Of a stretch of DNA of 64,000 nucleotides, positions 57,516-62,842 are shown in pieces. Position 1 is the first letter of the stretch. Every line of letters starts with the position of its first letter. The DNA lies in the NCBI GenBank assembly GCA_002239025.1, contig MPNM01000002.1:186001-250000 (forward strand), written 5' to 3'. The notes beneath the pieces were generated by a model that ran no database searches, was not told where the DNA came from, and was given only the letters and a program-made list of their open reading frames with translations. This DNA comes from Chloroflexi bacterium bin125 (GTDB lineage Bacteria > Chloroflexota > Dehalococcoidia > Bin125). Both the position numbers and the translations under genes were made by a program.

Positions 57516-57703
57516 TTCCCCTCTCCCCCCCTTGCGGGGGGAGATGTCACGGAGTGACAGAGGGGGGGTCGGCTGACAATGACCAGATAGGACTCTCTAA
57601 CAGTGGACCCCCCTATGCCTTCGGCATCTCCCCCGCAAGGGGGGAGAAGGGGAGTCTCTTAAAGGTCTCTTGCAGGGGGAGCTGCCGAAGGCTGAGGGGG
57701 TCT
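57516..57703. repeat. Cluster of three copies of a two-hairpin palindromic repeat
   Basis: Copy 1 (57516-57570, plus): CTCCCCCC-TTGC-GGGGGGAG hairpin, then TGTCAC-GGA-GTGACA, then AGAGGGGGGGTC. Copy 2 (about 57606-57654, inverted): first hairpin CTCCCCCC-TTGC-GGGGG, second ATGCC-GAA-GGCAT. Copy 3 (57672-57703, plus, 5'-truncated): GGGGGAG, CTGCC-GAA-GGCTG, AGGGGGTC. The second stem differs in sequence but is conserved in structure. No gene is seen in 57501-57788. Confidence 0.8.
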
Positions 57704-58220: not shown

Positions 58221-59900
58221 ATGCATCCACCTACCAAATTCTCCCTCCAAGACGCCAACGGTCAGGAAATGCAGTTCCCGCCGCAGGGCCCCGTCCTGCT
58301 GGCGCTGGTCAAAGAAGACTGCGATACCTGCAACCTCACCCTGCCGCTGCTCGAAGCGGTTCACCGAGCCACTGACGACGGACTTGATGTCTGGGTCGCC
58401 GTACAGAAGACCGAGGACATCCCCGTCCTCAAGGACCGTCACGATCTGACCATGCCGTTGCTGGACGACGACGCGCTCGATCTGTCCTATGAGACTGATA
58501 TCGATACTGTGCCGACGCTATTCCTGTACGACCAGGAACAGAACTGCACATTGCAGACATTCGGCTTCGACAGGCACGAGTGGCGTGAAATCGCGAAGGA
58601 GTCAATGGCGCTCGCCGGCCGACCCGATGGCAATACCGACATCGATTGGGACGCTCTGCCCGTCCAGCGACCCGGATGCGGCGCACGCAACTACGAGCCT
58701 GGCGTTTATGAGCGGCTGCAAGCGATCAAGAGCGGCGATCTGCTCTCGCGCCTCGTTGACCTTGCGTCGAGCGACGACATTCACGACTTCATGTACGAGC
58801 AGGGTTACACCGACGGCTTCCCCGTTGTGCCGCCGACGCGCGAGCGGGTCTGGAAAATGCTTCAAGGGACGGACCGCGATCCTCAGGACGAGGTAGCCAT
58901 TGTGCCGCCCAACCTGGCGCCGATCACGGTCGAGAAGATTGCGATCAATGCGGTCATGGCCGGAGCCAAGCCTGAATACATGCCCTCAATCATTGCGCTC
59001 GTAGAGATTGCCTGTACTGACAGCTTCAACATCCACGGCGTGCTCGCGACCACAATGGGCGCTACCCCGGTCGGCATCTTCAACGGACCGATTCGAGACC
59101 GAATCGGGATGAACTACCTCCACGGAGCGTTGGGGTCCGGCAACCGAGCCAACGCAGCCATTGGCAGGGCTCTGCGACTGTGTGTGCGTAATGTCGGAGG
59201 CAGTGTCCCCGGCGGCACTGATCGGGCAACGCAGGGCGGCCCGCATCGTCTGACGATGAACTTCGCCGAGAACGAAGACGCCAGCCCCTGGGAGTCGCTT
59301 GCCGTTGAGTACGGGTTCGAACCCGCCGACGACGTCGCCACACTCATGGCGATGTCTGGCGGCCCAGCCACGATCGCGGATGAGCGCTCGCGCGAAGCCC
59401 GTGGTATGGCTGGCACGCTCGCGATGTCGATGAGCTGCATGCAAGACCCGAAGTCTCCGATGGTCGACACGCTCGTCGTGCTCTCGCCCGACCATGCCGG
59501 CATCTTTGGCCGCTCTGGCTGGTCCAAGGACGATGTGCGCGAATGCATCATGGAAGAAACGGCCATCCCGCTGAAACACCGGCTGCGTTCCGATGACGCC
59601 GGCTGTGGACTCCCGCAAAGCGTCGTGGAGCGGTTCGGCGGCGAGGCAGCGCTCGATCTCCCCGTGCCCAAGTTCCGGGAGAAGTCCAACATCATCCTCG
59701 TCGTCGCCGGATCGTCCGCGGCCAAGTTCTCCACCATCCTCGGAGGCTGGGCTGGTGGCGCCTACTCCGTACCGACGAGCGCCACGATCGGACCGACCGG
59801 GGCATTGGAAGTCCGCGGCTCGAGAGGGTCCGACATGGACAAGCGCAGTTCAGGCGGACGAGAGCTCGGAGCGTTTGAGCCGAGCGTTCGCCCAGACTGA
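58221..59900 (+). CDS. Thioredoxin-like domain fused to an uncharacterised domain (paralog A of the cluster)
   Basis: A 559-aa soluble protein. Residues 1-135 form a thioredoxin-like fold with redox motif CDTC (Cys34, Cys37) and cis-Pro in TVPTLFLYD (Pro98). A linker has RPGCGARNYEPG (Cys153). From about residue 183 comes a roughly 350-residue domain I cannot assign, shared with 60645 and 61751: YTDGFPVVPPTRERV, VEKIAINAVMAG, NGPIRDRIGMN, GSGNRANAAIGRALRL, SPDHAGIFGRSGWSKDDVRE. The Asn/Gly-rich motifs suggest a ligand-binding or catalytic site. First gene of the cluster, 90 nt before the UGSC selenoprotein. A redox partner role for the selenoprotein is inferred from context. Confidence 0.9.
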   Translation: MHPPTKFSLQDANGQEMQFPPQGPVLLALVKEDCDTCNLTLPLLEAVHRATDDGLDVWVAVQKTEDIPVLKDRHDLTMPLLDDDALDLSYETDIDTVPTLFLYDQEQNCTLQTFGFDRHEWREIAKESMALAGRPDGNTDIDWDALPVQRPGCGARNYEPGVYERLQAIKSGDLLSRLVDLASSDDIHDFMYEQGYTDGFPVVPPTRERVWKMLQGTDRDPQDEVAIVPPNLAPITVEKIAINAVMAGAKPEYMPSIIALVEIACTDSFNIHGVLATTMGATPVGIFNGPIRDRIGMNYLHGALGSGNRANAAIGRALRLCVRNVGGSVPGGTDRATQGGPHRLTMNFAENEDASPWESLAVEYGFEPADDVATLMAMSGGPATIADERSREARGMAGTLAMSMSCMQDPKSPMVDTLVVLSPDHAGIFGRSGWSKDDVRECIMEETAIPLKHRLRSDDAGCGLPQSVVERFGGEAALDLPVPKFREKSNIILVVAGSSAAKFSTILGGWAGGAYSVPTSATIGPTGALEVRGSRGSDMDKRSSGGRELGAFEPSVRPD

Positions 59901-59931: not shown

Positions 59932-59990
59932 GCCTGTCAGACACACGGCGCGCCGCGACCCTGCAGTCGGCGCGTTGATGGAGAGGTCCA

Positions 59991-60521
59991 ATGGTTACCC
60001 AGATCCTTGATCCAACCGATGAACGAGTGCCGATCAAGCGCTCTCTCACGCCGCGCCCGGAAGCGCTGCATGGGAGGATCGCCCTGCTCGACATCTCCAA
60101 GCCACGTGGAGACGTCTTCCTCGACCGACTTGAGGAACTTCTGCACGAGCGCGCACCCGGTGTAGAGACGCGCCGCTTCATGAAGCCGACCGTCGCCAAG
60201 CCGGCCCCGCAACCGATCAAAGATGCAATTCTGGAGGAGTGCGACTTCGTTATCGAAGCGCTCGCTGATTGAGGATCCTGCACGACGTGCAGTGTGCACG
60301 ACACCGTTTTCTTCGAACTGCAGGGCAAGCCCAGCGTCTTCGTCGCGACTTCCGAGTTCATCAAGGCCGCCAGCCATCAGGCTGAACGTCTCGGACTCGA
60401 GGAAGTGCGTCGCGTCTTCATCCCGCATCCGATGCAGGACCGCACCGATGCCGAGATGCACGATCACGCCGAACGGTTTGTCGACGAAATCCTCGACACC
60501 TTGATGGCGCCCGTCGAATAG
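59991..60521 (+). CDS. UGSC-family selenoprotein, Sec encoded by in-frame TGA
   Basis: One continuous frame of 176 aa interrupted only by TGA at 60270-60272 (residue 94). Before it: RIALLDISKPRGDVFLDRLE and ECDFVIEALAD. After it: GSCTTCSVHDTVFFELQGKP, FVATSEF, VFIPHPMQ. The resulting AD-Sec-GSCTTCSVHD is the defining motif of the UGSC (Sec-Gly-Ser-Cys) selenoprotein family described from marine metagenomes, in which the residues after the motif are also conserved. Both halves match the family, so truncation is unlikely. Sec and Cys three residues later form a redox-type U-x-x-C pair. AGAGG precedes the ATG. Needs selA/selB/selC/selD, none of which are in the window. Reaction unknown. Confidence 0.92.
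60286..60300 (+). promoter_or_regulatory. Candidate bacterial SECIS hairpin
   Basis: CGTGCA-GTG-TGCACG: perfect 6-bp stem and a GTG loop. The loop begins 20 nt after the TGA, inside the usual 16-37 nt window, with G in the apical loop as expected for SelB recognition. It lies within the coding sequence, as bacterial SECIS elements do. A competing stem CTGCAC-GAC-GTGCAG (60278-60292) lies closer to the TGA. Confidence 0.65.
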
Positions 60522-60564: not shown

Positions 60565-60625
60565 CCCTCTCCCTCTGGGAGAGGGTTAAGGTGAGGGCTT
60601 TCCCCTGAACAGAGGGGCTCTCACC
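60565..60625. repeat. Two-hairpin intergenic repeat
   Basis: CCCTCTCCC-TCT-GGGAGAGGG (60565-60585), then GGTGAG...CTCACC (60590-60625) enclosing CCCCT-GAACAG-AGGGG. It separates the selenoprotein gene from the next paralog. CCCTCTCCCTCTGGGAGAGG-type repeats are widespread in intergenic DNA of bacteria (from memory). May attenuate or terminate, or protect mRNA ends. Confidence 0.7.
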
Positions 60626-60644: not shown

Positions 60645-61754
60645 GTGCCCGGCGAAACCGACTTCTACTCTCGAATCATCGAAATCGCCGAGCATGACGA
60701 TGTCTACGAGTTCATGTTCGCCCAGGGAATCACCGACGGCCTGCCTGTCATCCCGCCCACCCGCGAGCGTGTCGACCGAATGCTCGGCTGCGCTCCAGAG
60801 CACTGGAGCGATCCCCAGAAGATCGTCGCGACGCTACCTCCCAACAATGCGCCGATGAGCGTCGAGAAGGCAGCCATCAACGCAGTCATGGCTGGCTGCA
60901 GTCCCGAGTTCTTCCCCACGGTCCTGGCTTCCGTCGAAGCCGCCGCCGGAGGGCAGTTTCCCCTGCACGGGTCAATCGCCACGACGGCCGGACTCGCGCC
61001 GATGATGTTGGTCAACGGACCAGTCCGTGAACAGATCGGCATGAACTGGGGACTCAACGCCCTTGGTCAGGGCAATCGAGCAAACTCGACCCTCGGACGC
61101 GCCCTCCGGCTGATGCTGCGCAACATCGGCGGAGCCGTGCCCGGCGAGATCGAACAGGCCATCCAGGGCGGCGGCCACAAGTGGACACTCAGTTATGCGG
61201 AGGACGAGGACTACTCGCCCTGGGAACCATTCCACGTCGAGCATGGCTACGAACCCGACGACAGCGTCGTCTCCTTAGTCCCGATCACTGGCGGTCCGAG
61301 AGTCTGCATCGATCAGACCAGCCGCAACGGGCGAGCGCTGACCGGCTCAATCGCGATGGCTTTCCAGCAAGTGCTCAAGCCGCGAGGTCAGGTCTCCCCC
61401 ACGATGTTCGTGATCAGTCCCGAACACGCCGATGTCTATCGGGCCGACGGCTGGTCAAAGGACAACATCCGCGAGGCGATCATGGAGTTTACCGCGCTCC
61501 CGCTCCGTGAGCGTCTGGCCACGCCAAGCATGGGCGGCGGCATCAACGAGTACCTGCCCGAACAGCACGGTCTGACCGAACAGCAGCTCGACATGCCCAT
61601 GTCGAAGGTGGCTGATCCCTCGTTCATTCAGATCACCGTCGCCGGCAGCCACGCCGGCAAGTGGACCAGCATCTATCAGGGCATCTTCGGCGACGGCAAT
61701 CCTGCAGCGCCTCCACCTACGTTTGTTCCCCCGTCCGCTCTCGTTCGTTCATGA
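60645..61754 (+). CDS. Uncharacterised paralog B of the selenoprotein cluster
   Basis: A 369-aa protein made of the same domain as the C-terminal part of 58221, without the thioredoxin part. Shared motifs: ITDGLPVIPPTRERV (residues 29-43), PPNNAPMSVEKAAINAVMAG, VNGPVREQIGMNWGLNALGQ, GNRANSTLGRALRL, EDYSPWEPFHVEHG, GGPRVCID, SPEHADVYRADGWSKDN. No signal peptide. The start is a GTG at 60645 with AAGG 7 nt upstream. No invariant Cys is shared by all three paralogs, so they may bind a substrate acted on by the selenoprotein rather than do thiol chemistry themselves (inference). Confidence 0.85.
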   Translation: MPGETDFYSRIIEIAEHDDVYEFMFAQGITDGLPVIPPTRERVDRMLGCAPEHWSDPQKIVATLPPNNAPMSVEKAAINAVMAGCSPEFFPTVLASVEAAAGGQFPLHGSIATTAGLAPMMLVNGPVREQIGMNWGLNALGQGNRANSTLGRALRLMLRNIGGAVPGEIEQAIQGGGHKWTLSYAEDEDYSPWEPFHVEHGYEPDDSVVSLVPITGGPRVCIDQTSRNGRALTGSIAMAFQQVLKPRGQVSPTMFVISPEHADVYRADGWSKDNIREAIMEFTALPLRERLATPSMGGGINEYLPEQHGLTEQQLDMPMSKVADPSFIQITVAGSHAGKWTSIYQGIFGDGNPAAPPPTFVPPSALVRS

Positions 61755-62842
61755 TCAACTTTGGCTCGCGCACCATTGATGTCACCGACCACGACGACAT
61801 CTACGAATTCCTCTTCGACCAACGCGTGACCGACGGCCTGCCGGTCGTCCCTCCAACCCGCCAGCGCGTGGAGCGGATGTTGGCTGCCACTGTTCGCTCG
61901 CCTGAGCAGGTGATCGGCAAGATCCCGCCAAACTACGCGCCCGCCACGGTCGAGAAGATCGCCATCAACGCCGTCATGGCCGGAGCATCGCCAATGTTCT
62001 TGCCGCTCATCATTGCTGCTGTCGGCGCCGCAGCCGGCGGACAGTTTCCTCTGCACGGGACGATTGCCAGCACCGACGGCATTTCCCCCATGGTCATTGT
62101 CAATGGACCAGTTCGCGAGCAGATAGGGATGAACTGGGGTCTCAACGCGCTGGGACAGGGCAATCGTGCCAACATGACCATCGGCCGTGCTCTGCGGCTG
62201 GTCTTGCGCAACATCGGCGGCGCTCGAGAGGGCGAGATCGACCAGACCGTCCAGGGCGGCGCCCACAAGTTCACGCTGACCTTTGCCGAGCACGAGGATG
62301 CCTCGCCCTGGCAACCGCTGCACGTTGAGCACGGATACCAGCCCGACGAGAGCGTCGTCACGTTGTTGCCCGTGATCGGCGGACCTCGAGTCTGCGTCGA
62401 CGAGTACAGCCGTACAGCAAGAGCGCTCGTCGGCTCCCTGGCGATGGGATTTGACTGCATCTTCAGCCCCAATGGGCAGATCGGCCCGTCCATGCTCGTG
62501 ATCAGTCCCGAGCATGCCGGTGTCTTTCGCCAAGACGGTTGGTCCAAAGCCAATGTCCGCGAATCGATAGTGGAACTCACAGCGCGACCTATCCGCGATC
62601 GTCTCGCCACCGACCGAGTCGGTGGAGGCATCACCCAAGCCACACTCGAGCGAGAAGGCATCACCGAAGCGGACCTCGATCGCCCGATGTCGAAGGTCGC
62701 CCATCCGTCCCACATCCAGATAGCCGTCGCCGGATCGACCGCCGGAAAGCGCACCGGAATCTACCCGGGAATCGTCCGCAGGATGGACCCTGAGCACATG
62801 GACGACTTCACTCCAGTTTCCGCACGAATCGATCCGTTGTGA
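61751..62842 (+). CDS. Uncharacterised paralog C of the selenoprotein cluster
   Basis: A 363-aa protein, closest by eye to paralog B: VTDGLPVVPPTRQRVERMLA, PPNYAPATVEKIAINAVMAG, VNGPVREQIGMNWGLNALGQ, GNRANMTIGRALRLVLRNIG, EDASPWQPLHVEHGYQPDES, GGPRVCVDEYSR, SPEHAGVFRQDGWSKANVRE, and the PMSKVAHPSHIQIAVAGS segment near the end. The ATG at 61751 overlaps the stop of B (ATGA), so B and C are translationally coupled and probably made in equal amounts, perhaps as a heteromer. A longer frame from 61661 lies inside B. Confidence 0.87.
   Translation: MINFGSRTIDVTDHDDIYEFLFDQRVTDGLPVVPPTRQRVERMLAATVRSPEQVIGKIPPNYAPATVEKIAINAVMAGASPMFLPLIIAAVGAAAGGQFPLHGTIASTDGISPMVIVNGPVREQIGMNWGLNALGQGNRANMTIGRALRLVLRNIGGAREGEIDQTVQGGAHKFTLTFAEHEDASPWQPLHVEHGYQPDESVVTLLPVIGGPRVCVDEYSRTARALVGSLAMGFDCIFSPNGQIGPSMLVISPEHAGVFRQDGWSKANVRESIVELTARPIRDRLATDRVGGGITQATLEREGITEADLDRPMSKVAHPSHIQIAVAGSTAGKRTGIYPGIVRRMDPEHMDDFTPVSARIDPL

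Follow-up and report, generated by a model that had tools for sequence, protein, structure and literature searches.

A UGSC-family gene with a predicted selenocysteine codon and its thioredoxin-bearing partner family in a Dehalococcoidia genome

In the window analysed here, the whole 64,000-nt stretch of contig MPNM01000002.1 from Chloroflexi bacterium bin125, a UGSC-family gene with one in-frame TGA lies in a same-strand cluster with three genes that are paralogues of one another and form what we refer to as the partner family (Table 1). The UGSC frame runs from its ATG through the TGA to the stop codon at 60519-60521, is open on both sides of the TGA, and its read-through translation is MVTQILDPTDERVP...ECDFVIEALAD-U-GSCTTCSVHDTVFFELQGKPSVFVATSEF...RRVFIPHPMQD. 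The motif stretch of the product reads EALAD-U-GSCTTCSVHD...FIPHPM, so that the Gly-Ser-Cys-Thr-Thr-Cys-Ser-Val-His-Asp continuation and the downstream IPHPM reported in an earlier note on this DNA are both present, and the full length of 176 aa given there was obtained in our analysis as well. That note also stated that standard gene callers would split the gene into pieces of 93 and 76 aa: the ORF upstream of the TGA is indeed 93 aa long, whereas the downstream ORF, starting from GTG 60294, has 75 aa. Two further elements were observed around the cluster. Between the UGSC gene and the next gene, positions 60573-60597 hold the repeat-element-like sequence CTCTGGGAGAGGGTTAAGGTGAGGG, which occurs as a single copy in the window, and positions 57611-57698 hold a pair of GGAGATGCCGAAGGCAGAGGG-like elements in inverted arrangement, with similar translated text near the C29 UGSC locus.

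Table 1. Features of the UGSC locus, in window positions.
Feature	Position	Strand	Remarks
559-aa protein: N-terminal thioredoxin domain and UGSC partner domain	58221..59900	+	CDTC, cis-Pro98
Probable Shine-Dalgarno GGAGAGG	59980..59986	+	ahead of ATG 59991; read from sequence
UGSC-family selenoprotein gene (predicted)	59991..60521	+	176 aa, one TGA read through
Sec94 codon TGA (predicted)	60270..60272	+	within the UGSC motif; likely resolving residue Cys97
SECIS-like hairpin	60286..60300	+	stem 60286-60291/60295-60300, loop GTG 60292-60294
Stand-alone partner-family member	60645..61754	+	369 aa
Second stand-alone partner-family member	61751..62842	+	ATG overlaps the preceding gene's stop (ATGA)

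The read-through product was matched by two family models, by PF24696 with an E-value of 9.5e-44 and coverage of positions 1-171 in a profile of 172, and by the NCBIfam model NF041046 (UGSC_fam) with 153.5 bits at a cut-off of 125. In-frame TGAs with a cysteine two to three codons away are many in the window and arise by chance, but the matches to both models indicate that the context of this TGA is not of that kind. Inspection by eye of the remaining in-frame TGAs in the window showed no second selenoprotein site of a known type, and by the same inspection a chance UxxC context was rejected, as those other TGAs resemble no known selenoprotein site. The earlier note had named relatives that end at the TGA as evidence against recoding; the three nearest relatives (L037-L039) all retain the TGA.

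Downstream of the TGA, at bases 17-31 counted from its T, 104 distinct UGSC genes share a hairpin with a six-pair stem and a three-base loop. Each stem pair is kept in 94 to 104 of these genes, with a swap from C-G to G-C at one pair in several of them; because the sequences, from Chloroflexota, Proteobacteria, Acidobacteria and others, are related and hence not independent, no p-value is attached to this conservation. As the protein motif dictates part of the stem, codon choice is the better test of the hairpin, and it is strongly skewed. The Ser codon is AGT in 97 of 97 cases, a codon with a share of 7% in the rest of these genes; the Thr or Ser codon preceding the Cys ends in G (ACG or TCG) in ~97%, compared with backgrounds of 36% and 25%; the Val codon is GTG in 44 of 44 (39% in the background); and the Leu codon is TTG in 78% (12% in the background). 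The folding energy of the single sequence is unremarkable (z of about -0.9). Frozen synonymous sites combined with a preserved stem are the mark of a bacterial SECIS, and the comparison of sequences supports the reading of this hairpin as the element that would direct recoding of the TGA.

The host genome is a draft MAG of 66 contigs and 3.68 Mb that is 96.7% complete, and the named genomes nearest to it are Dehalococcoidia MAGs. It encodes SelA (516 bits), SelB (328 bits, above the cut-off) and SelD (351 bits), as well as a tRNA-Sec found both with Rfam (66 bits) and with ARAGORN (anticodon TCA). The Sec set is complete, which bears out the view of the earlier note that the organism uses selenocysteine. 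Its selD is a selenoprotein gene as well, with an in-frame TGA in GGUGSK (L015:1531-1533). The genome has three additional UGSC copies, at 31-33% identity. One in-frame TGA is present in each of them, so that all four copies carry the codon. Beside one of them, an AhpD-like gene (CMD, PF02627; L031:8788-9159) has a TGA in NQCSVULDTR (CxxU) and is likely, judging from its sequence, to encode another selenoprotein.

These results leave scarcely any probability to a reading in which translation really ends at the TGA, or in which the TGA is due to a sequencing error or marks a pseudogene, with a 93-aa product. This reading could draw on the split by a standard caller and on the draft state of the genome but is rejected on account of the TGA standing at the same codon in ~100 homologues with a readable site and by the frozen synonymous sites 3' of it, and which is also opposed by the conserved protein sequence past the TGA and by the Sec machinery. 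As the earlier note proposed, the TGA almost certainly encodes selenocysteine, and the gene belongs to the UGSC family. When this identity is taken jointly with a redox role of the product, cleavage chemistry being excluded, we still consider the combined reading probable.

Selenocysteine use was described in the earlier note as uncommon in the presumed phylum of the host, which our survey contradicts: of the 400 Chloroflexota genomes that were sampled, 307 had a SelB match above the curated cut-off. UGSC was present in 42 of these 400 genomes. Exactly one TGA occurs in 87 of the 92 UGSC matches listed and none in the remaining five; three of those five were examined, and L171 has a Cys at the Sec position, a U-to-Cys alignment that the earlier note had named as a check, whereas L172 and L174 have lost the motif. 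A comparison of lists by hand found selB at an E-value of 1e-60 or better in 38 of the 42 UGSC-bearing genomes, the exceptions being G217, G259, G329 and G344. Many UGSC members have an additional Cys three residues past Cys97, forming a CxxC. In 2008 the family, with 255 sequences, ranked among the most frequent selenoproteins in the ocean and fresh-water metagenomes of the GOS study (PMC2398784), and its function is still unassigned in the list of a 2026 review (PMC13188914).

The partner family, which together with its thioredoxin domain is absent from the account in the earlier note, accompanies UGSC closely. A partner gene adjoins each of the four UGSC copies in the host genome. With the partner as query, UGSC was found in the flank of 76 of 79 loci from other genomes (within 300 nt in 73), always on the same strand as the partner, in a sample that was drawn from the best 80 matches and is therefore biased to near relatives. 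With UGSC as query, the partner was found in 25 of 29 loci within a flank of only 1.5 kb. In addition, natural fusions of the two, in which the Sec-site TGA is the only one, occur at L143/L175 (one locus), L144, L173 and L176; fusion of UGSC with a second domain (Unknown_1) has been known since 2008 (PMC2398784). Among the genomes with such fusions, G344 (L143) is 98% complete and has no selB at an E-value of 1e-60, and G178 has two adjacent UGSC-partner fusions, L173 with the Sec codon and L172 with the motif lost. This module of UGSC and a partner with thioredoxin did not turn up in the literature that was searched.

The partner itself is large, and numerous residues other than Cys are invariant in it. 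Against Pfam and NCBIfam, the only credible match in the partner family was to the N-terminal thioredoxin-type domain of some members, and a PDB sequence search with the UGSC and partner profiles gave no credible match. A thioredoxin domain is present at 75 of the 79 partner-query loci, with CxxC in 77 of 80 sequences and the cis-proline in all 80. In the structural model of the partner this domain matches the ResA/StoA type with Z up to 17.8, and since such matches are filled by the thioredoxin domain they say nothing on the fold of the partner domain proper.

In the model of the UGSC product (pLDDT 93), strand and helix alternate five times and Sec94 begins a helix; the model matched CheY, lumazine synthase and flavodoxin-like chains. 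Thioredoxins are absent among the matches listed, which is no proof; the predicted fold appears to be flavodoxin/CheY-like rather than thioredoxin-like.

Profile comparison pointed to a distant relationship with GrdB, the selenoprotein B of glycine reductase. By hhalign, UGSC 84-176 aligned to GrdB 337-425 with U on U at 95.7% probability, over only ~86 columns and with part of the score supplied by the motif itself. When eight motif columns were masked the register was unchanged at 73%, and 20 column-shuffled controls reached at most 0.7%; smaller GrdB/PrdB-like proteins matched UGSC more weakly, at 63%. Matches to the Pfam GRDB model (PF07355) end directly before the Sec codon (L145-L164), so that the Sec domain seems to lie outside the model, and for the profile comparison the GrdB genes were translated onward through this codon. 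Five such matches occur in the host genome, and the one followed past its end, L161:1501-1890 (minus strand), has an in-frame TGA directly after LTPV (UPFC), as a predicted GrdB/PrdB-like selenoprotein. A search of the host genome for GrdE, the pyruvoyl subunit family (PF09338), returned no match, and profile comparison of the partner with GrdE and with GrdB gave 0.1%, no detectable similarity, and the partner was therefore rejected as a relative of either. Since GrdE is missing from the genome and the partner is unlike it, UGSC is best described as distantly related in sequence to the Sec domain of GrdB and not as a glycine reductase, and it is not filed as GrdB. In the literature searched, no such connection was found in papers that mention UGSC as well as glycine reductase.

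From these observations we propose that UGSC may be the subunit that contributes Sec to a two-component reductase, of which the partner would be the substrate-binding part. The selenolate of Sec94, which the flavodoxin/CheY-like model places at a helix N-terminus, would attack a substrate bound to the partner; Cys97 would resolve the product as a selenenyl-sulfide, and the thioredoxin domain of the partner would then reduce that bond. The chemistry might resemble that of GrdB, whose Sec region UGSC resembles. We regard a thioredoxin-driven redox pair of UGSC and partner as somewhat favoured over its alternatives, while GrdB-like cleavage of a C-X bond, argued by analogy, is a tentative proposal with less than an even chance. 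As the partner is unlike GrdE and GrdB, no pyruvoyl substrate subunit is evident, and the broader idea that UGSC, partner and fused thioredoxin constitute a widespread, undescribed selenium-dependent reductase of several phyla, with GrdB-type Sec chemistry without a pyruvoyl subunit and with the partner's own thioredoxin domain as the source of electrons, is likewise speculative and probably not correct in full. Neighbours of the other UGSC copies include genes for an acyl-CoA dehydrogenase, a luciferase-like monooxygenase, an SDR, a CoA-transferase and the AhpD-like selenoprotein. They suggest catabolism without pointing to a particular substrate, and neighbours other than the partner vary from locus to locus.

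Two other functions were weighed. That UGSC carries or chaperones selenium or a metal, the partner being the client, would agree with its small size and with the CxxC of many members, but the neighbours tested at the other three UGSC loci include neither a selenium gene nor a metal-uptake gene and the fused thioredoxin indicates redox turnover, making this reading improbable. A better contender, though one we still judge unlikely, is that UGSC and its partner serve general thiol or peroxide defence or repair, as a peroxidase-like protein or disulfide reductase, instead of a GrdB-like cleaver. Thiol oxidoreductases are common among selenoproteins and the partner carries a ResA/StoA-type thioredoxin domain; against this, the UGSC model does not appear thioredoxin-folded, its sequence aligns with GrdB, catabolic genes lie beside the other UGSC copies, and a large partner with invariant non-Cys residues is more suggestive of a substrate-binding enzyme than of an electron carrier. 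For the two-component reductase, the constant partner with its built-in thioredoxin, the natural fusions and the GrdB link together provide a concrete and testable hypothesis of UGSC function. Our analyses also illustrate how a Sec codon breaks gene calls, as a standard caller would split the UGSC gene, and correct the idea that selenocysteine use is rare in Chloroflexota.

Compared with known systems, the N-terminal domain of the 559-aa partner protein shares the CxxC and cis-Pro of ResA/StoA, and its model superposes on them with Z of about 17 over 131 residues at 2.0-2.2 Å, but unlike them it shares one protein with the UGSC partner domain, and its gene lies next to UGSC. The UGSC gene is a further member of the already known UGSC family (PF24696, NF041046), from which nothing excludes it: its product matches the profile at full length and above the curated cut-off, the Sec predicted at its TGA lies in Sec-Gly-Ser-Cys with the Cys at +3 invariant, a SECIS-like element 3' of the TGA is recognised by conservation, and the host has SelA, SelB, tRNA-Sec and SelD. 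The one difference is in the fold, modelled here as flavodoxin/CheY-like, whereas a thioredoxin-like fold was thought likely in 2008 (PMC2398784) and the 2026 review places the family beside thioredoxin-fold selenoproteins (PMC13188914). Finally, UGSC does not have the N-terminal region of GrdB, but GrdB (PF07355) and PrdB of D-proline reductase have U-G-x-C-x-x-C in register with UGSC and similar segments past the Sec site (GxP, HP).
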